From assembly GCA_903912525.1 (NCBI GenBank), contig CAIWHK010000032.1:310001-374000 (forward strand): a stretch of DNA of 64,000 bases. Direction: 5' to 3'. Positions within the stretch are counted from its first letter, which is position 1. Every line of letters starts with the position of its first letter. A model generated the notes under the pieces. That model made no database searches. It was given only the letters and a program-made list of their open reading frames with translations, and was not told where the DNA came from. Of this stretch, positions 32,355-44,994 are shown in pieces. The DNA is from an uncultured bacterium (GTDB taxonomy: Bacteria > Krumholzibacteriota > Krumholzibacteriia > LZORAL124-64-63). The position numbers were made by a program, and so were the translations under genes.

Positions 32355-32663
32355 ATGCGCGACGGCATGATCTGCGTGGAGACCTACGGGTCCGAGCTCG
32401 AGGCCGAGATGGCCCTTGGCCAGCTGCAGGCGATGGGCATCACCGCCGTCATGGGGCGGGACGATTCCGGCGGGATGTACCCCCAGCTCGACCAGGTCGT
32501 GGGCATCAGCGTGCTGGTCTACCAGGAGGATGCGGCCCAGGCTCGCGCCATCCTGACCGGTACGGGCGGCGACGGCTCGGGCGCCTGGACCTGCCCGGCC
32601 TGCGGCGAGGAAGGCGAACCCGGTTATGACGCCTGCTGGAAATGCGGGCGTGAGCGCATGTAA
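32355..32663 (+). CDS. DUF2007-type protein with C-terminal zinc ribbon
   Basis: 102 aa. The N-terminal ~65 residues follow the DUF2007 (PII-like ferredoxin fold) pattern: VETYGSELEAEMALGQLQAMGI, a central VGISVLVYQEDAAQARAIL. The C-terminus is a four-Cys zinc ribbon, CPACGEEGEPGYDACWKCG. The function is unknown; proteins of this kind are proposed signalling or adaptor proteins. AAAGGA precedes ATG 32355; an in-frame GTG lies 3 nt upstream. Its 3' end overlaps the start of the downstream secreted M1 peptidase gene by 14 nt. Confidence 0.75.
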   Translation: MRDGMICVETYGSELEAEMALGQLQAMGITAVMGRDDSGGMYPQLDQVVGISVLVYQEDAAQARAILTGTGGDGSGAWTCPACGEEGEPGYDACWKCGRERM

Positions 32664-34725
32664 CGGCCTGCGCCGGCGGGCCCGCGGCCAACTGGCAGAA
32701 GTCCGACTGGCCGCGCTCGCCATCGCCCTGTGCCTGCTGCCGGAAGGCGCCGCCCGTGCGGCGCCTTTCGTGCCTGCCCCCTGCAAGCGGTTCGAATCCC
32801 TGGTCACGGACCTCGCGCCCAAGGCCGAGCCCACGCCGCCGCGCAGCGACGACCGCGGCCTGGACATCCTCAGCTACGACCTCGACCTGGTGATGGACCC
32901 CGCCCCCGGCCCCGCGGCCGGGGTGGTGGCGCTGACCGGGCGGGTGGACATCGGCCTGCGCGCGGTGCGCGGCGGCGTCACCACGCTGGCGCTGGACCTG
33001 GTGTCGCAGCTGACCTGCGATGCGGCCACGCGCGCGGGGCAATCGCTGCCGTTCACACAGTCGGGCGAGGAACTGCTGGTAACGCTGCCGGCGCCGCTGT
33101 CGACCGCCGCCCCCGAGACCGTCACCATCACCTGGCACGGCCGCCCGCCCCGGCATGGCAACCTCTACGTGGGGATGATGTACCGCCGCGACGACAACGG
33201 TACCCCGGCCGACCCTTCCGACGACACGCCGTTCATGTTCACCGTGAGCGAGCCCTGGTCGGCCCATGCCTGGTGGCCGTGCAAGGACCATCCCGCCGAC
33301 AAAGCGCTGGTGTCGCTGGCGGCGACGGTGCCCGCGGACCTGACGGTGATCGGCAACGGGTCACTGGAATCGGTGGCGGACGCCGCGCCGGGCTGGAAGC
33401 GCTTCCTGTGGCGCGAACGGTATCCCCTGCCGACGTACCTGGTGTCGGTCGCCGCCTCGCGCTACGAGTCGTGGCGCGAGGACTGCCGCCCGGCCGCGGC
33501 CGCGCCGGTGCCGCTGGATTACCACGTCATCGCCCGCGACCGCGCGCGGGCGGCATTCGATTTCGGCAACTCGTGCGCGATGATGGACGTGCTCACCGGG
33601 CTGTTGGGCCCCTACCCGTTCGCGGGCGAGAAATACGCGCAGGTCGAGGTGGTGTGGGGCGGCGCGATGGAGCACACGACCGCGACGTCCATCGGCCAGT
33701 ACATGTTCACGGGCGACCGCCGCTACGAGCAGGTGGTCGTGCACGAGATGGCCCACCAGTGGTTCGGCGACAGCCTGACGCCCGTGCGCTGGTCCGACAT
33801 CTGGCTGAACGAGGGCTTCGCCACCTACGCCGAGGCGCTGTGGCTGGAGGCCTCGCAGGGGCCGGCCGCGCGCGAGGCGTTCATGCGGCAGATCGGCCCG
33901 GCCCGGCACACCGACCTGTTCACCGGCGACGGCACGCTGCTGGACCCGTCCCCCATCCTGCCCAACACCCTGGTCTACGACAAGGGCGCGTGGGTGCTGC
34001 ACATGATGCGCGGGGTGATCGGCGACGAGGCGTTCTTCCGGTTCCTGCGCGCGTGGACCGGGGACCCGGCGCGCGTGCAGGGCTCGGTCGGGGTCGAGGA
34101 CATGATCCGCGTGGCGGAAGCGGCAGCCGGGCGCGACCTGGGCCGGTTCTTCGACGGGTGGCTGGGCTCGGACGCGGCGCCGACGCTGAGCCTGGAATCC
34201 CGGACCGGCCGGCAAGGCCCGCGCGCGACCGCGGCGGCGACCCTGCGCCAGCTCCAGGACAGGACGTTGACGGTACCGGTGCCCCTGCTGCTGCACCTGG
34301 TGGACGGCAGGAAGGTGCCGGTCACGGCGCTCTTGGAGGGGCGCGAGCAAACGTTTCGCTGGACCCCGGACGCCGCGGTGGACTCGGTGACGGTGGACCC
34401 CGACCGGGCGCTGCTGGCGCGCTGGATGCCCACCCCGCCCCCGGCGCTGGTGGTGACGGGGCCGGCTCCGAACCCGGTTCCGGGCGATGGGGCATGGTTC
34501 GCGTTGTTACTGAAGGAAACCTTAGAAGTGGCTGTCGATGTATATGATGTCCGCGGCCAACTGCTCGACTCTACGGACCTCGGCCTAGTGCCGGCCGCCG
34601 AGACCGGGCAGGCCGGTGTCGCCTGGCGCTGGGAACCCGCGGGTGCGGTTCCGGCCGGCGTCTACTGGCTGGCATTCCGGTCCGGGGACACGAGCGTCGT
34701 TCGGCAGGCGGTATTCATCCCCTAG
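32650..34725 (+). CDS. Secreted M1-family aminopeptidase with C-terminal sorting-type domain
   Basis: 691-aa exported zinc peptidase. The signal peptide spans about residues 1-38 (RRRAR, then LAALAIALCLLPEGAARA). The catalytic part has WGGAMEHTTAT (GAMEH in place of GAMEN, as in many Bacteroidetes-like M1 enzymes) and HEMAHQWFGD...WLNEGFATYAE with all zinc ligands. Residues from about 605 form a FlgD-like/T9SS-type C-terminal domain (APNPVPGDGA, VDVYDVRGQLL, GVYWLAFRSGD), suggesting surface delivery or anchoring. The start is uncertain: GTG 32650 fits the signal peptide best, while ATG 32626 would add 8 residues. The stop is 27 nt from the convergent photolyase gene. Confidence 0.87.
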   Translation: MSACNGLRRRARGQLAEVRLAALAIALCLLPEGAARAAPFVPAPCKRFESLVTDLAPKAEPTPPRSDDRGLDILSYDLDLVMDPAPGPAAGVVALTGRVDIGLRAVRGGVTTLALDLVSQLTCDAATRAGQSLPFTQSGEELLVTLPAPLSTAAPETVTITWHGRPPRHGNLYVGMMYRRDDNGTPADPSDDTPFMFTVSEPWSAHAWWPCKDHPADKALVSLAATVPADLTVIGNGSLESVADAAPGWKRFLWRERYPLPTYLVSVAASRYESWREDCRPAAAAPVPLDYHVIARDRARAAFDFGNSCAMMDVLTGLLGPYPFAGEKYAQVEVVWGGAMEHTTATSIGQYMFTGDRRYEQVVVHEMAHQWFGDSLTPVRWSDIWLNEGFATYAEALWLEASQGPAAREAFMRQIGPARHTDLFTGDGTLLDPSPILPNTLVYDKGAWVLHMMRGVIGDEAFFRFLRAWTGDPARVQGSVGVEDMIRVAEAAAGRDLGRFFDGWLGSDAAPTLSLESRTGRQGPRATAAATLRQLQDRTLTVPVPLLLHLVDGRKVPVTALLEGREQTFRWTPDAAVDSVTVDPDRALLARWMPTPPPALVVTGPAPNPVPGDGAWFALLLKETLEVAVDVYDVRGQLLDSTDLGLVPAAETGQAGVAWRWEPAGAVPAGVYWLAFRSGDTSVVRQAVFIP

Positions 34726-36391: not shown

Positions 36392-39300
36392 CTATTTGAC
36401 CAACGTCAGCTTCGTCACGTCGCCTCCGTCCGGCGCCGTCAGCCGCGCGTAGTACACGCCGCTGGCAAGCTTCCGGCCGCGGTCATCGACGCCCGCCCAG
36501 ACCATGGTATGACGCCCCACGGTCATCTCGCCGTCGGCCAACGTCGCCACGGCGCGGCCCAGCGCATCGTGGATCACGACGCGCACGTGCCCGGCGCGGG
36601 CCAGGTCAAGTGCGATCGTGGTCTGCGGGTTGAACGGGTTCGGGTACGCGCCGGCCAGGCGGCTCTGCCTGGGCACGTCACCCGGGTCGACAGCCGTCAC
36701 GCCGTCGGCGAAGCCCAGCTTGAATGCGGCTGCGCCGGCGCCCAGGTCCTGGCGATGGACCACCAGGCAGTAGTACGCCGCCGTGGCCACCGTGAACGAG
36801 ACCTGCTCGCCCTGTCCGGCCGTGCCCGAGGCCCCGAGGGCCGTCGCGTTTGTCGGGCCCTGGTACACCGTGCCCGCGCGATGCACCGCCAGGTCCAGGT
36901 TGGCCGACGACTGGTTGATCAGGCTGATCGCGTAGGTGCCCGGGGCCAGGTAGACCTCGAACAGCGTCACCAGGCCCCCGCTGGGCACCTGGTACGGACC
37001 CATGTAGCCGTACGGGGCGCCCAGGTAGGTCGACGCTGCGACGTGGGCCTTGTACGAACCGCTGCCGCTGCTGCCGAGGACGCCGACATCGTAGTCCGCG
37101 AACGCGGTGTTGTTGTAGTCGACCAGCACGTAGTCGCACACCGACCCGGCCAGGTACGAACCGACGAGGCTGCCCCCGAAGCCGTTCTTGGCGCCGGTGC
37201 TCGCCGTGTGCAGGCGGATGTCGTAGTCGGCCGCCGCCGGCGGCAGGACCGCCAGGGCCTTCCACCAACCGCCGCCGGTGCCGACCAGGCGCAGGCCGTC
37301 GCAGTTGTACCAGCGCGCCTCGCCGGTGGTCACTTCGTTCCAGCCGCCGGTACGCGACGGCGGGGTCGCGCGCACGGCGGTGGCGCCCGGCGCCAGGCGC
37401 GCGGGTTTCCAGATCCACTGCTCGCCGCGGACGTTGTTGGTCTCGCTGGTCTCCTCGACCGCATCGTGGCCGTCAACGCGCAGGGCCAGCGTGTGACGGC
37501 CGCCGCTGAGCGGGTAGCCCCACGACCAGTTGTACGCGCCCATCCATCCCGAAGGCGCATTCGTCCATGAGAGCCAGGTCACATCCGCGCCGTCGCGCTG
37601 GATGTACGCCGGCACCGCCGACGCCACCGGCCCGTAGTTCTGGGCACCCAGGTTGAAGTACGTCACGTTCGGCGCGCTGCCGAGCGTGTCGGGCACCGCG
37701 CAGGTCGTGGCCGTACCGTCGGCCAGCGATCGCGGCGTCAGGGCTGCGTACCAGCCCGCGGGTGCGTACGGCGCCAGGTCGGGCGGCGTCGTCGACACTT
37801 CGATCGTCACGTTCATCGCCGCTGAACCGCTCGTGGGATCGCGATAGACGGCGATGCCGTACCATCCGGTCGTCGCGAGGGTTGCCGCCACGCGCGCCCG
37901 ACCGCTGGCATCGGTCTGCGCGCTGCCGACGATGCTGCCGGCGGTAACGCCGCTCGTCAACGTGCCGGTCGTGTAGGTCGCATTCAGCAGCACCACCTTC
38001 AGCGGGCCGGCGGCGGGGTCACAGGCGACCGTCACGCTTACCGGGCCGACCGAGGCGACCGGCACGCTGAACTCGCGCAGCAGGATCGGCACGCCAGTGC
38101 CCATGGCCACGGTCACCGAGTCGCCGAAGGCCATGCCCGAGCTCTGCGCATGGAAGGCGTGGTAGGCGACCGCTTCGGTGGTCGAGCCGAGCACGCCCAC
38201 GTCGAAGTTCGCCGACCCGTCGACGTTGCGGTTCGCGAGCACGACGTCCAACCGGCCGGCCACCTGCGCGGTGTAGCCGATGTTGGCGCCGAAGCCGTCC
38301 GTGGAGCCGGCCGAGGCGACGTGCAGGCGCGCGTCCACGTTCTTCGTGTTGTCATCCGCCCACAGGGCCATGGCGTGCCACCAGCCGCCGGCTGTGGGCA
38401 TGCGCAGGCCGTCGCAGTTGTACCAGAGCGTTCCCGAGGCCTCGGACCAGCCGCCGGTCGACAACGGAGTGCTGCGCGTGAACGTGGCGTTCGCAGCCAC
38501 CGGCAGCGGCGTCCAGACATACTGGGCGCCGGCGTTGTTGTTCGCCTCGTCCGTCTCGGCGATCAGGTCGGTGGCGTCGTGCACGAACGTGAATGTATGG
38601 CGCCCGTAGGGGACGATCACCGGGCCCCAGTTGTTGGCGCGGTAATAGCCGCCCGCGCCGATCGCGCTCCAGTACACCGAGTTCGCGGTGGCGCCGTCGA
38701 CGTGCAACTGGCCGTAGAAGCCGCTGCTCGTGGTGACTTCGCCCTGGTTCAGGCCGAACATGTTCCAGTAGGTGGAGCCGCCGCCGGTCAGCGTCGGCGA
38801 GAGGGTGCACGCGCTCGGGGTCGCGTCGTTGGTTGCACGCGGCACCACCGTGGCATCCCAGCCCGCAGCCAGGTACGGCGCCAGGTCGGCAGGTTCCGGC
38901 GCGCGGACGATGAAGGGCCCGAACGACCCGTAGCCGGCGGCCCAGTTCCCGGCGCGGTCCACCGCCCGGATGTTGAACCAGTACGTGCCGGGCACCAGCG
39001 CGGTGGACGTCCATGTCGTCACGTTGCCGATGTCCTGGACCGGTGTCGGAATGCCGGCCGCTCCGGTGCTGATGAACAGGCCGTAGCCCGCGATGCCCGA
39101 GTAGTTGTCCGTCGCCGCCGTCCAGGTGAAGGTCGGCGTGTTGTCCGGCGAACTGACGTTGATGACGTGGCTGGGCGACGCCAGGTTCGTGACGGTGCCC
39201 GGCACGGCGGTGTCGAGGGTGTAGCCGCAGTTGGCCGCCGTCGCCCAGAACGCCGACTTGTACGACGGGTAGCGGACCGCGAACTCGTTCAGGAAGTTCT

Positions 39301-40747
39301 GCGACCCGGTCGGGTTGTCCAGGGCGTTGATCGCGTAGGCCGTGGCGACGCCCATGTTCAGCTCGTCGGTGAACGTGCCGTAGACGCCGTGGCTGTCCTG
39401 AGCGCCGTCGGAGATGTCCTGCAGGAGCGCGGCGATGAAGCCCTCGGTCAGCAGCGGGTCGCCGTACGTCCCGCCCCAGCAGTCGGCGAGCGCCTCCGCG
39501 CTGGTCGCAGCCAGGGGCGTCACTCCGTAGTAGCCGGGCATCCAGTTGCCGACGGCCCAGCTGTGGAACTGCGCCCAGCCCTCGAGCCAGGCGATGGACT
39601 GCGACTCGCTGCACCAGAAGCAATGCCCGCAGTCACCGCCGTCGCACACCCCGTTGCAGTAGTCGAACGGTTCCCACGAGGCGATCTCATGGTCGAACCA
39701 GTGGCCGTACTCGTGCCACAGGCACCCGTCGTTCCAGTTGAAGTCGGTGCGGATCTGGATGCGACCACCGGGGCTGCAGTTCGGCCACGCGGCCGACGGC
39801 CACTCGACGCGGCACTTCGAGACGTCGTAGCCCAGGTTGTTGTCGCACACCCAGGCGCGGGTGGCGTTCGTGAACTGGAACACCGCCGGGTGCAGTTCAT
39901 CGGCGGCCGGCTCGAAGGTGCCGAAGTCCAGGTCCGTCCCCGCGTAGTTCGATTGGACGCCGGTAGCCCACGCGTAGTTGCCGCCGCTGGTGGGCTCATA
40001 GGTGTCCACGCGCCCGTTCGTCAACTCGATGCGCACGTAGATGTCCGGATCGTCGAAGAGGTCGACGAGCAGCGTCTCGACCGACAGGCTGAAGTAGCCG
40101 TCGAAGTTGGTGCTGCCGGTGCCCATGAGCTGGTCGACGATGCCGTCCTCGTCCCACACCTGCACCAGCGCCGAGTGGGCGGGCAGCCACAGGCCGCCCT
40201 CGCGCGGCGCGCCGAAGCGGCCGCGCACCGTGACCAGGCGCTTGGCGTCGGACGGCGGCACGGTCACCGGGTTCGCCAGCGCGCTATCCTGCAGTTTCGG
40301 GTCCGGGTTGCCCGGGGGCACCTGGCCGTCCGGCACCCGCCGCACGGCGCCGCCCTCGGTCATGTTGCGCACGTTGCGCGCGGAAAGGTCGATCGGGAAC
40401 TTGATCTCGCCGCCCTTGAACCGGCAGGAGAACATCAACCGCTGGTCCGGGTCCAGGGCCAGCGCGCTGAACTCGACCGTCAACCGGTCGCCGGCCTTGA
40501 CCGTGCCGGCGGCGGGCGCCGCCTTCATCACCGGCACCCAGCCATCGCCGGCCACGGCGAAGTCGGACAGCATGCCGGGCTCTCCACACGTGATTTCCAG
40601 GCGGCCTGCGTACGTGTCGCCGCTGCCCAGCGCGACGAACGGCGAGACCAGGCGGACCGTGATGTCCGCGCCGATGTCGGCCATCGCCGGCACCGCCAGC
40701 GCCAGGAGCGCCGCCAACACCGGCAGTATGAGGATGCGTCGGTTCAT
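36392..40747 (-). CDS. Large secreted protein with HEYGH metalloprotease-like site, duplicated modules and C-terminal sorting domain
   Basis: 1451 aa; family not recognised. Order: signal peptide (1-23, VLAALLALAVPAMA); a beta-rich N-terminal part; an HExxH zinc-protease signature HEYGH at 345-349 with a candidate third ligand Glu389 in WLEGWAQF (39713 and about 39580 on the DNA); a Cys-rich insert between them (CNGVCDGGDCGHCFWC, about 364-379); a fibronectin-like segment (about 515-615); two similar ~360-residue modules, each opening DLAPY and containing RHT, ETNN/EANN and WYNCDGLR (about 620-982 and 989-1347, CARDB-like start); and a YPNPFNP-containing FlgD/T9SS-type sorting domain (1367-1451). 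ATG 40747 is chosen for its AGGAGG site; GTG 40756 is an alternative. It is probably a surface or extracellular protease. The enzymatic role is inferred from the motif only. Confidence 0.8.
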   Translation of the reverse strand: MNRRILILPVLAALLALAVPAMADIGADITVRLVSPFVALGSGDTYAGRLEITCGEPGMLSDFAVAGDGWVPVMKAAPAAGTVKAGDRLTVEFSALALDPDQRLMFSCRFKGGEIKFPIDLSARNVRNMTEGGAVRRVPDGQVPPGNPDPKLQDSALANPVTVPPSDAKRLVTVRGRFGAPREGGLWLPAHSALVQVWDEDGIVDQLMGTGSTNFDGYFSLSVETLLVDLFDDPDIYVRIELTNGRVDTYEPTSGGNYAWATGVQSNYAGTDLDFGTFEPAADELHPAVFQFTNATRAWVCDNNLGYDVSKCRVEWPSAAWPNCSPGGRIQIRTDFNWNDGCLWHEYGHWFDHEIASWEPFDYCNGVCDGGDCGHCFWCSESQSIAWLEGWAQFHSWAVGNWMPGYYGVTPLAATSAEALADCWGGTYGDPLLTEGFIAALLQDISDGAQDSHGVYGTFTDELNMGVATAYAINALDNPTGSQNFLNEFAVRYPSYKSAFWATAANCGYTLDTAVPGTVTNLASPSHVINVSSPDNTPTFTWTAATDNYSGIAGYGLFISTGAAGIPTPVQDIGNVTTWTSTALVPGTYWFNIRAVDRAGNWAAGYGSFGPFIVRAPEPADLAPYLAAGWDATVVPRATNDATPSACTLSPTLTGGGSTYWNMFGLNQGEVTTSSGFYGQLHVDGATANSVYWSAIGAGGYYRANNWGPVIVPYGRHTFTFVHDATDLIAETDEANNNAGAQYVWTPLPVAANATFTRSTPLSTGGWSEASGTLWYNCDGLRMPTAGGWWHAMALWADDNTKNVDARLHVASAGSTDGFGANIGYTAQVAGRLDVVLANRNVDGSANFDVGVLGSTTEAVAYHAFHAQSSGMAFGDSVTVAMGTGVPILLREFSVPVASVGPVSVTVACDPAAGPLKVVLLNATYTTGTLTSGVTAGSIVGSAQTDASGRARVAATLATTGWYGIAVYRDPTSGSAAMNVTIEVSTTPPDLAPYAPAGWYAALTPRSLADGTATTCAVPDTLGSAPNVTYFNLGAQNYGPVASAVPAYIQRDGADVTWLSWTNAPSGWMGAYNWSWGYPLSGGRHTLALRVDGHDAVEETSETNNVRGEQWIWKPARLAPGATAVRATPPSRTGGWNEVTTGEARWYNCDGLRLVGTGGGWWKALAVLPPAAADYDIRLHTASTGAKNGFGGSLVGSYLAGSVCDYVLVDYNNTAFADYDVGVLGSSGSGSYKAHVAASTYLGAPYGYMGPYQVPSGGLVTLFEVYLAPGTYAISLINQSSANLDLAVHRAGTVYQGPTNATALGASGTAGQGEQVSFTVATAAYYCLVVHRQDLGAGAAAFKLGFADGVTAVDPGDVPRQSRLAGAYPNPFNPQTTIALDLARAGHVRVVIHDALGRAVATLADGEMTVGRHTMVWAGVDDRGRKLASGVYYARLTAPDGGDVTKLTLVK

Positions 40748-40759
40748 GGTCGCCACCTC

Positions 40760-41287
40760 CTAGCGTTCGTTGGCGGGCACGGGACGCGGCGTCGTCGGCG
40801 GCACGGGCGCCGGCGGATTGGTGATCAGGTTCATGTCGGCGTTGATCTGCGCCGCAAGCGCGTCGTTGCCGGCGCGCCGCGCGTGATCGGCCTGGATGCC
40901 GAGGATCGTCAACTCGGTCGCCTGCTTCAGCCCGGCGATCTGCGCCATGATCGCCTGCTGCGAGGTCTCGTCCGCTGCCTGCGCGGCCCGCTCGGCCAAC
41001 GCGGCCACGGCGGCGTCACCGGCCGCCAGCGCGGCCTCGATCTCGACCATCATCGGCGAGAGGGCGCGCGCCGGAGGCGTCGGGACCACGGCTGCCGTCG
41101 GCACGATCTCGACGCCGGCCTGGATCTCGGCCTGGTTGATCTCGAGGTCGGGCATCGCGGGCGGAGAGGCGACGACGGGCGGATCCACCGGAGTCTGGGC
41201 CGACGGCTCGTCGGCCAGGGTCGGCAAGGCCAGAAGAGCCAGGACGGCGCCGGCGATCATGATGCGGGCGGTGCGACGGTTGGACAT
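40760..41287 (-). CDS. Small secreted Ala-rich protein of unknown function
   Basis: Not recognised. 175 aa with a signal peptide (RIMIAGAVLALLALPTLA, cleavage near residue 24). A Pro/Val-rich stretch is followed by an Ala/Gln-rich helical region (about 80-155, heptad-like EIEAALAAGDAAVAALAERA) and a Pro-rich C-terminus (PPAPVPPTTPRPVPANER). An AGGGGGA site precedes ATG 41287. It stops 12 nt before the start of the large HEYGH protein, so the two are co-transcribed and may interact, for example as inhibitor, chaperone or anchor. That link is inference from position only. Confidence 0.7.
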   Translation of the reverse strand: MSNRRTARIMIAGAVLALLALPTLADEPSAQTPVDPPVVASPPAMPDLEINQAEIQAGVEIVPTAAVVPTPPARALSPMMVEIEAALAAGDAAVAALAERAAQAADETSQQAIMAQIAGLKQATELTILGIQADHARRAGNDALAAQINADMNLITNPPAPVPPTTPRPVPANER

Positions 41288-43142: not shown

Positions 43143-43988
43143 ATGAGGAACCTGCTGCGACACCGGTTGCGCCGGCTGGGCGCGACCTCGGCCATCGTCG
43201 GCCTGCTGCTGGCCTTGTCCGGGAACACGACGGCCACCGCGGGCGAGAGCCGCCTGCGCGTGATCGCCTCCACCACCGACCTCGGCTCGATCGCGGCCGC
43301 GGTCGGCGGCGACCGCGTCGAGGTCGCGACCATCGCCCGGCCGGGCTCGGACGTGCACCGCGTCGAGGTCCTGCCCTCGTACATGGTGCGCGTGGCACGC
43401 GCCGATGTGTACCTGAAGGTGGGACTGGCGCTCGACGCCTGGGCCGACCAGATCATCGACGGTTCACGCAACACGAAGATCACGGTGGTCGACTGTTCAC
43501 GGCCCATCACGCCGCTGGACAGGCCGGCCGGCCGCGTCGACGGCCGCGCGGGCGACGTGCATCCGGACGGCAATCCCCACTACTGGCTGGACCCGCGCAA
43601 CGGCGCGTTGGTGGCGCAGGAGATCGCCAGCGCCCTCGGGAAGCGGGACCCGGCGCACGCCGCGGAATTCACGACGCGCGCCGAGGCCTTCGGCGCCGAG
43701 TGCCGCGCCCGCCATCAGGCAGTTGCGACAAGGCTGGCGGCCCTGCCGGTGCGCGAGATCCTGACCTACCACTCGTCGTGGGTCTACCTTGTCGCTGCGA
43801 CGGGACTGACGGTGGGCGCGACGGTGGAACCGGTGCCAGGCATCCCCCCGACCGGCGCGCACCTGCAGAAACTGGTCGACCTGGTCAAGGCGCGCGGCAT
43901 CCGCGTGCTGCTGCAGGAACCGTACTTCCCGGACGATGCCGCCGCCTTCCTGGCGCGCCAGACAGGGTTGCGAACCGTGAAGGTGTAA
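43143..43988 (+). CDS. znuA: Metal (Zn/Mn) ABC transporter substrate-binding protein, shortened by an in-frame stop
   Basis: Periplasmic cluster A-I (ZnuA/TroA-like) binding protein, 281 aa as read. Signal peptide about 1-33; mature start RLRVIASTTDLGSIAAAVGGDRVEV. Candidate metal ligands are His72 (SDVHRVEV), His140/His146 (DVHPDGNPHYWLDP), His210 (TYHSSWVYL) and Glu259 or the nearby Asp residues (LLQEPYFPDD). The reading frame stops at TAA 43986-43988, right after RTVKV. The same frame continues for 25 codons to TGA 44066 with SCDDATAGSYLAHFDAVAGA, which is the normal C-terminal helix of this family. A single CAA-to-TAA change would explain this. The protein may be truncated yet functional, read through, or a recent pseudogene. 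Confidence 0.85.
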   Translation: MRNLLRHRLRRLGATSAIVGLLLALSGNTTATAGESRLRVIASTTDLGSIAAAVGGDRVEVATIARPGSDVHRVEVLPSYMVRVARADVYLKVGLALDAWADQIIDGSRNTKITVVDCSRPITPLDRPAGRVDGRAGDVHPDGNPHYWLDPRNGALVAQEIASALGKRDPAHAAEFTTRAEAFGAECRARHQAVATRLAALPVREILTYHSSWVYLVAATGLTVGATVEPVPGIPPTGAHLQKLVDLVKARGIRVLLQEPYFPDDAAAFLARQTGLRTVKV

Positions 43989-44066
43989 CCGTCGTGCGAC
44001 GATGCGACGGCCGGCAGCTACCTGGCGCACTTCGACGCCGTGGCGGGCGCGATCGCCGCGCCCTGA
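43989..44066 (+). other. Orphaned C-terminal coding segment of znuA beyond the in-frame stop
   Basis: Twenty-five sense codons and TGA 44064-44066 in frame with znuA. The encoded SYLAHFDAVAGAIAAP matches the final helix expected in ZnuA-like proteins, so the TAA at 43986 interrupts what was recently a 307-codon gene. Confidence 0.75.
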
Positions 44067-44075
44067 CCCGATAGC

Positions 44076-44136
44076 CGGTGGTGGCGGTGTCGCGCATGGA
44101 GCGCCGGCCCCGCCACCGCCACGCCCCTACCGAAAG
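44076..44136 (+). repeat. Inverted repeat between znuA and znuB
   Basis: GGTGGTGGCGG (about 44080-44090) pairs at ten of eleven positions with CCGCCACCGCC (about 44110-44120), forming a possible stem-loop in the 79-nt gap. It might modulate expression of the permease relative to the binding protein. Confidence 0.45.
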
Positions 44137-44145
44137 CGGGGTCCC

Positions 44146-44994
44146 ATGGACGCCCTCGGCATGCCCTTCTTCCGCACGGCGCTCATCGCCTGCTTCCTGC
44201 TGGCCGGCATCCACGCCTACCTCGGCTTCCATGTCGTGCGGCGCGGGGTCATCTTCGTCGACCTGGCGCTGGCCCAGATGGCGGCGCTCGGCGTGGCGCT
44301 CGCCATCGTCCTGGGACGCCACGACGAAGGCCTGTTCACGTACGCGTTGGCCCTGGGCATGACGTTCGTGGGCGCGGCCTGCTTCGCCTGGCTGCGCAGC
44401 CAGGAACGGCGCCATGTGCCGCTCGAGGCGTTCATCGGCATCGTCTTCGCCACGGCGCAGGCCGCAGTGTTCCTGGTGCTCGAGAAGACGCCGGCCGGCC
44501 CCGAGCACCTGAAGGAAACGCTGGTCGGCACCCTGTTCACCATCGACCCGCGCCATGTCGCCAAGACCGCCGTGCTGTATGCCGTGATCGGCGTGGCGCA
44601 CTGGCTGCTGCGAAAGCCGTTCTTCGAGATCACGAGCGATGCGGAGGCGGCGCGAAGGCGCGGCCGTCGCCTGTTCTGGTGGGACTTCCTGTTCTACGCG
44701 ATCTTCGGCTTCGTGGTGACATCGTCGGTGCAGATCGCCGGCGTGCTGCTGGTCTTCGGCCTGCTGGTGATCCCCGCCGTGGCCGGGCTGATGGCCTCGT
44801 CACGCACGGGCGTGGCGCTCGCGGTGGGCTGGACGTTCGCGTTCGTCGGCTGCATCGCGGGGCTGGTCGGGTCGGTCAGGTGGGACCTGCCGGCGGCGCC
44901 GAGCGTACTGGTGGCGCTCAGCGGGCTGCTGGTCGTGACGGGTGTCGTATTGCCGTTGGCCAAAGGGCGCGGCCCCGGGAACGCCCCGAAGTGA
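44146..44994 (+). CDS. znuB: Metal (Zn/Mn) ABC transporter permease
   Basis: 282-aa inner-membrane permease of the ABC-3 family with about eight hydrophobic helices. Typical features are HVVRRGVIFVDLALAQMAALG near the N-terminus, FIGIVFATAQAAVFLVLEKTP, and the C-terminal FGFVVTSSVQIAGVLLVFGLLVIPAVAGL segment conserved in ZnuB/TroC proteins. It would form a homodimeric channel for metal delivered by the ZnuA-like protein. No ATPase gene lies nearby, so one must be supplied elsewhere. ATG 44146 has only a weak GCGGGG site. It is convergent with the helicase gene. Confidence 0.9.
   Translation: MDALGMPFFRTALIACFLLAGIHAYLGFHVVRRGVIFVDLALAQMAALGVALAIVLGRHDEGLFTYALALGMTFVGAACFAWLRSQERRHVPLEAFIGIVFATAQAAVFLVLEKTPAGPEHLKETLVGTLFTIDPRHVAKTAVLYAVIGVAHWLLRKPFFEITSDAEAARRRGRRLFWWDFLFYAIFGFVVTSSVQIAGVLLVFGLLVIPAVAGLMASSRTGVALAVGWTFAFVGCIAGLVGSVRWDLPAAPSVLVALSGLLVVTGVVLPLAKGRGPGNAPK

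Follow-up and report, generated by a model that had tools for sequence, protein, structure and literature searches.

A probably new family of type IX-exported, gluzincin-like proteases with a small helical partner in Krumholzibacteriota

Introduction

What is the function of a secreted protein of 1451 residues that carries an HEYGH motif, and why is it encoded directly behind a small exported protein? The gene pair lies in a stretch of 64,000 nucleotides from an uncultured Krumholzibacteriota bacterium (contig CAIWHK010000032.1, positions 310,001 to 374,000), which is called the window in the following. An initial annotation, made from the letters of the DNA, had proposed a surface protease together with its inhibitor, chaperone or stalk. 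The explanation that we consider likely as a whole is that the window pair is one copy of a two-gene unit expanded in this lineage, comprising a probably new family of gluzincin-type proteases predicted to be exported by type IX secretion and a conserved small partner of their anchoring half. It builds on the conserved residues, the domain layout, the pairing of the genes and a fold model of high confidence. The reading of the large protein as a protease, drawn from sequence and model, is very likely, and for the small protein a role as escort or stalk is mildly favoured.

Results and Discussion

Gene pair and domain layout

Both open reading frames of the initial annotation were confirmed in position and length (Table 1). 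Only 12 nt separate the stop codon of the small gene from the ATG of the large gene, and this TAG stop abuts the ribosome-binding site of the large gene (GGAGGTGG). A zinc uptake pair is encoded about 1.9 kb upstream of the small gene on the plus strand, consisting of a ZnuA-type zinc-binding protein (43143-43988) and an ABC-3 permease (44002-44994).

Table 1. Features of the gene pair, in window coordinates
Feature	Residues	Position	Strand	Basis
Small exported partner gene, 175 aa		40760..41287	(-)	ORF; homologues upstream of relatives
Signal peptide of small protein	about 1-25	within 40760..41287	(-)	
Three-helix region of small protein	78-156	40820..41056	(-)	AlphaFold pLDDT about 98; conserved core
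Large secreted protein gene, protein P0001, 1451 aa		36392..40747	(-)	ORF; ATG 40747, stop 36392
Putative signal peptide, ending ...AMA before D	1-23	40679..40747	(-)	sequence, by eye
N-terminal domain	24-171	40235..40678	(-)	sequence comparison
Transthyretin-like beta domain	about 172-278	39914..40234	(-)	profile 5ek8, TTR-52, Foldseek
Gluzincin-like catalytic domain	about 279-513	39209..39913	(-)	AlphaFold model; LasB match
HEYGH, predicted two His zinc ligands and catalytic Glu346	345-349	39701..39715	(-)	conservation
Cys-rich loop CNGVCDGGDCGHCFWC	Cys 364, 368, 373, 376, 379; His375	39611..39658	(-)	insertion relative to M36-like proteins
Predicted third zinc ligand	Glu389	39581..39583	(-)	conserved in 62 of 64
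Sixth conserved cysteine	Cys423	39479..39481	(-)	lost together with loop cysteines
TEG motif	Glu435	39443..39445	(-)	kept in all members covering the position
Ig/Fn3-like linker domain	514-615	38903..39208	(-)	weak Big_13 match, E=0.28
Module 1, opens with CARDB domain	616-985	37793..38902	(-)	Pfam; self-comparison
Module 2, opens with CARDB domain	986-1348	36704..37792	(-)	Pfam; self-comparison
Type IX (type A) sorting domain, YPNPFNP, FlgD_ig-like	1367-1451	36395..36649	(-)	TIGR04183, FlgD_ig

The start of the N-terminal domain (ADIG/ADVGPP...) recurs in most homologues, including most of those from Phycisphaerae. Behind it, a profile built from 45 homologues matched the N-terminus of the lipoxygenase 5ek8 (E=1.6e-7) and TTR-52 (0.3) in the PDB, and 24 of the 45 members also matched TTR-52 weakly when searched individually. 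Since both profile matches are limited to the beta-domain part, the N-terminal third of the searched region appears to be a transthyretin-like sandwich. The two similar stretches of about 360 residues seen earlier in the C-terminal half are indeed homologous (370 and 363 residues, 33% identity, E=1e-39), and CARDB was found by Pfam with E=3.7e-11.

Predicted type IX export

The motif YPNPFNP, previously taken as the mark of a sorting domain, begins at residue 1368, and the type A sorting domain model TIGR04183 of NCBIfam reaches 24.5 bits against a cut-off of 23. FlgD_ig was detected by Pfam (E=9.8e-10), and PF18962 alone scores below its cut-off. The genome encodes SprA (488 bits), PorU (465 bits) and PorV (183 bits), all above cut-off, with the best PorU and PorV matches adjoining each other. 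With these three components present, type IX export of the large protein is well supported at the level of sequence. The protein thus shares the TIGR04183 domain and the SprA, PorU and PorV background with type IX cargo carrying a type A sorting domain, but it differs from usual cargo by its twin CARDB modules and by a small helical partner gene that looks obligate. We found no description in the literature of a twin-CARDB type IX cargo paired with a small helical protein. An M1-family aminopeptidase is encoded in the window, too (32626-34725, plus strand), and its C-terminal domain resembles by eye the FlgD/type IX tail.

Predicted active site and cysteine loop

Conservation was counted in 64 sequences covering the site, with gapped rows left out position by position. 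His345 and Glu346 are each kept in 62 of the 64 and His349 in all of them, and the same holds for Glu435 in the 64 members covering it. Glu389, which lies in WLEGWAQF (residues 387-394), is likewise kept in 62; the two members with Ala in its place are the ones that also lack His345 and Glu346. The catalytic residues are kept so widely that the conserved features cannot be put down to chance. The initial annotation, which placed HEYGH and Glu389 correctly, had let the protease role depend in part on this conservation. The distance between the second His and Glu389 has a median of 41 residues among family members, the shortest being 29 and 33.

Six cysteines within about 20 residues had been noted in the same region. 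In fact, there are five within 16 residues (364-379); a sixth conserved cysteine does exist, but at position 423. Cys343 directly in front of HEYGH is not conserved among the homologues.

Two members appear to be natural pseudoenzymes. In L030 (4022-8143) and L043 (1007-5149), which are sisters in the tree (support 100/100), HEYGH reads ALYGH or FLYGH: His345 is changed to Ala or Phe, Glu346 to Leu, Glu389 to Ala and His375 to Ser. All six cysteines, the domain architecture and the small gene are retained in both. This common loss suggests that His345, Glu346, Glu389 and His375 form one functional unit, from which the cysteines are separate. Judged from the sequences, the six cysteines therefore look like structural residues and His375 looks like a part of the active site. 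Furthermore, L150 has lost precisely Cys364 and Cys373, and the distant members L103 and L148, which lack the loop, lack Cys423 as well. Such losses fit what would be expected if the cysteines form disulphides.

Fold and relation to known peptidases

The AlphaFold model of residues 172-513, calculated with 38 relatives, has a mean pLDDT of 91.8 and a pTM of 0.91. Helix 340-355 contains HEYGH and helix 383-407 contains Glu389, which places the HExxH motif and Glu389 on consecutive helices behind the transthyretin-like domain. In the Foldseek comparison with the PDB, the M4 pseudolysin LasB was the best near-full-length match (E=1e-4, probability 1.0, but TM-score 0.36) and the only zincin among the top matches, the others aligning to the transthyretin-like part. 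This match points to a gluzincin-type zincin with an extra loop. The structural check of the proposed zinc site is in line with ligands on two successive helices and yielded a LasB match, though with a TM-score of only 0.36. The gluzincin-like reading of the domain, with Glu389 as third ligand, agrees with conservation, model and the correlated loss in the two pseudoenzymes.

LasB likewise has a beta part first and then a helical part, in which a Glu lies downstream of HExxH, but it is only 11% identical to the window domain, and a comparison of profiles was uninformative with regard to an M4 relationship (probability 0.3%). The secreted M36 (fungalysin-type, PF02128) proteins of the same genomes also have HEYGH and then a Glu helix (A..EG..D). 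Aligned as profiles, the window family and the M36-like proteins from these genomes pair HEYGH with HEYGH and AWxEG with AISEG, over a short stretch and with a probability of 38%. In this alignment the Cys-rich loop is an insertion between the two helices; M36 proteins lack it and have a shorter spacing between HExxH and Glu. No Pfam peptidase family matched the large protein in a single-sequence search, nor did an NCBIfam peptidase family or any PDB sequence, and neither the window protein nor the 45 members matched PF02128 (M36) or PF02868/PF01447 (M4). The earlier statement that the protein matches no protease family thus holds against Pfam, NCBIfam and PDB sequences, and the family appears to be undescribed. 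A literature search found no paper on metalloproteases or type IX secretion in Krumholzibacteriota. The FP0506 elastase of Flavobacterium psychrophilum is comparable in being a surface gluzincin-like protease of no known family from a lineage that has type IX secretion (PMC6414381). It differs in being a type IX-independent lipoprotein of 296 aa with HExxH/ExxA at short spacing (PMC6414381).

The small protein and the twin modules

Where the upstream DNA is intact, nearly all Krumholzibacteriota members are directly preceded by a homologue of the small gene, so the conservation that had been asked about for this gene is given. The gap to the large gene is mostly about 11-19 nt in a survey whose minus-strand values are one too high, and in six loci stop and start overlap. 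The family has in common a signal peptide and a helical core, and many members share a (V)PD..xNQAEI motif. The conserved core comprises Q132, A136, L97 and K121, of which Q132 and A136 are invariant. NCBIfam detected no sorting domain on the small protein. The model did not match any solved fold: the best hit, an encapsulated ferritin (E=0.73), reflects a common helical hairpin, and DUF1824 of Pfam (E=0.23) is noise. Distant homologues stand alone in L128 (4946-5368; G000:C12:19966-20349), L141, L142, L143 and L147, with no twin-module gene directly behind them.

A cross-tabulation of the loci showed with which half of the large protein the small gene is associated. Protease, twin modules and small gene occur together in 41 loci, whereas none of the 15 loci with a protease and no twin modules has the small gene; conversely, six loci have the small gene and twin modules without a protease. 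Three further small-gene cases are contigs cut before the twin modules. Nine rows with protease and twin modules were scored as lacking the small gene, but they include cut contigs and one locus in which the small gene was seen; absence is clear for L044, L064 and L065. Nor was the small gene detected beside at least three proteins that have twin modules but no protease (L159, L160 and one in L161). The small gene also accompanies two more twin-module proteins without the HEYGH protease. Of these, L156 (106-3846; G002:C52) carries a reprolysin-like metzincin at its N-terminus (PF13583, E=8.3e-18) and the small gene upstream. The 12 Phycisphaerae copies have neither twin modules nor small gene and fit a single transfer event. 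The cross-tabulation, the metzincin case and the pseudoenzymes together indicate that the small gene does not follow the protease domain but goes with the twin-module chassis, whatever its payload. This disfavours an inhibitor; the small protein probably helps in export or assembly of the C-terminal half.

By eye, L157 (G035:C694) is also a twin-module protein in which a reprolysin-like metzincin replaces the HEYGH domain. Another twin-module group (L158, L159, L161) has an N-terminal domain of about 150 aa (INGSSTASNCGEAGNWIDLTFTT...), and no small gene was detected there.

Alternative explanations

For the large protein, three other readings have to be considered. It might belong to a known MEROPS family (M36, M4 or M9) from which it has diverged beyond the reach of current models, as the LasB fold match and the combination of HEYGH with an EGxxD-type Glu helix as in M36 could suggest. 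We consider this doubtful, because the window protein has no significant match to a Pfam or NCBIfam peptidase model, the best peptidase match in 45 members is a single M43 hit (E=0.027), and the M36 relatives are encoded in the same genome as proteins of their own. It is improbable that the protein is a zincin-fold adhesin or binding protein with a relic catalytic motif. The CARDB modules are large and look adhesive, and two members have lost the site while keeping the rest of the architecture; but the window copy and 61 other homologues retain all four catalytic positions, and the loss is all-or-none and restricted to a single small clade, the pattern that selection on the site in the other members would produce. 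The CxHCxxC spacing and the nearly invariant His would also suit a second, structural zinc bound by the loop in place of disulphides. This is unlikely given that the protein is exported, that every cysteine is retained where His375 has disappeared along with the catalytic residues, and that one member has lost just Cys364 and Cys373, like a disulphide pair.

As in other operons that encode a secreted protease together with its inhibitor, the small protein could act on the protease domain in the periplasm, either inhibiting it or helping it to fold. The strict order with the small gene first, about 12 nt away or overlapping, would suit such a role, and so would the missing sorting domain. Against it, the small gene stands beside twin-module proteins whose protease is absent, dead or of a different class, and protease copies that have no twin modules lack it, which makes this possibility quite unlikely.

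Proposed mode of action

We infer the metal, the activity, the substrate, the disulphides and the role of the small protein as follows. A transthyretin-like domain would be followed by a gluzincin-type zinc metallopeptidase with His345, His349 and Glu389 as ligands and Glu346 as base, which may cut an extracellular protein or peptide. Disulphides of the six conserved cysteines would brace the loop beside the active site, and His375 on this loop may join the site as a ligand, in transition-state stabilisation or in contact with the substrate. The twin CARDB modules would serve as a shared chassis able to carry several payloads, among them the protease. From the same message, the small helical protein would be made first; it would remain periplasmic or surface-located and escort, hold or complete the twin-module half without inhibiting the protease.

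A wider reading, to which we give somewhat less than even credence, is a plug-in surface display in which a type IX twin-CARDB chassis carries a Cys-looped gluzincin, a metzincin, a dead enzyme or no payload and depends, for its export or its assembly at the surface, on a small helical escort of its own. If true, the system would add a new class of accessory to type IX secretion. The locus points to a dedicated, cargo-specific small partner of type IX-exported proteins, an idea that is directly testable because paralogues with and without the protease exist. Moreover, it probably represents a new zinc-peptidase family with an unusual disulphide-type loop, for which the pseudoenzymes are a natural experiment pointing to an extra active-site His, and it may offer a handle on how an uncultured phylum breaks down extracellular protein. 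For two Krumholzibacteria MAGs from marine bone, gelatin hydrolysis was predicted in a 2021 study (PMC7883544). That prediction is compatible with the protease reading and is no test of it.

Distribution of the family

The genome contains seven copies, and in the catalytic region the other six share 35-41% identity with the window copy. They are probably seven related exported surface proteases, predicted from sequence to be zinc-dependent, each directly behind a small exported helical protein. Matches were found in 28 of the 80 genomes of the phylum set, and close orthologues (59-82% identity) in five genomes. No relative of the window protein was detected in viral contigs. Named records of relatives belong to Candidatus Krumholzibacteriota, Phycisphaerae and, in one record, Gemmatimonadaceae.

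In a tree of 63 catalytic domains, whose root is set by midpoint only, all 12 Phycisphaerae/Planctomycetota rows form one clade (98/93) nested among Krumholzibacteriota. Such a single nested clade fits one transfer, so these copies were counted as one datum and not as independent evidence. Some Phycisphaerae copies have a weak dockerin-like C-terminus, below the Pfam cut-off, replacing the type IX tail (protein positions 1428-1477 in L088, 1449-1502 in L098 and 1383-1432 in L092).
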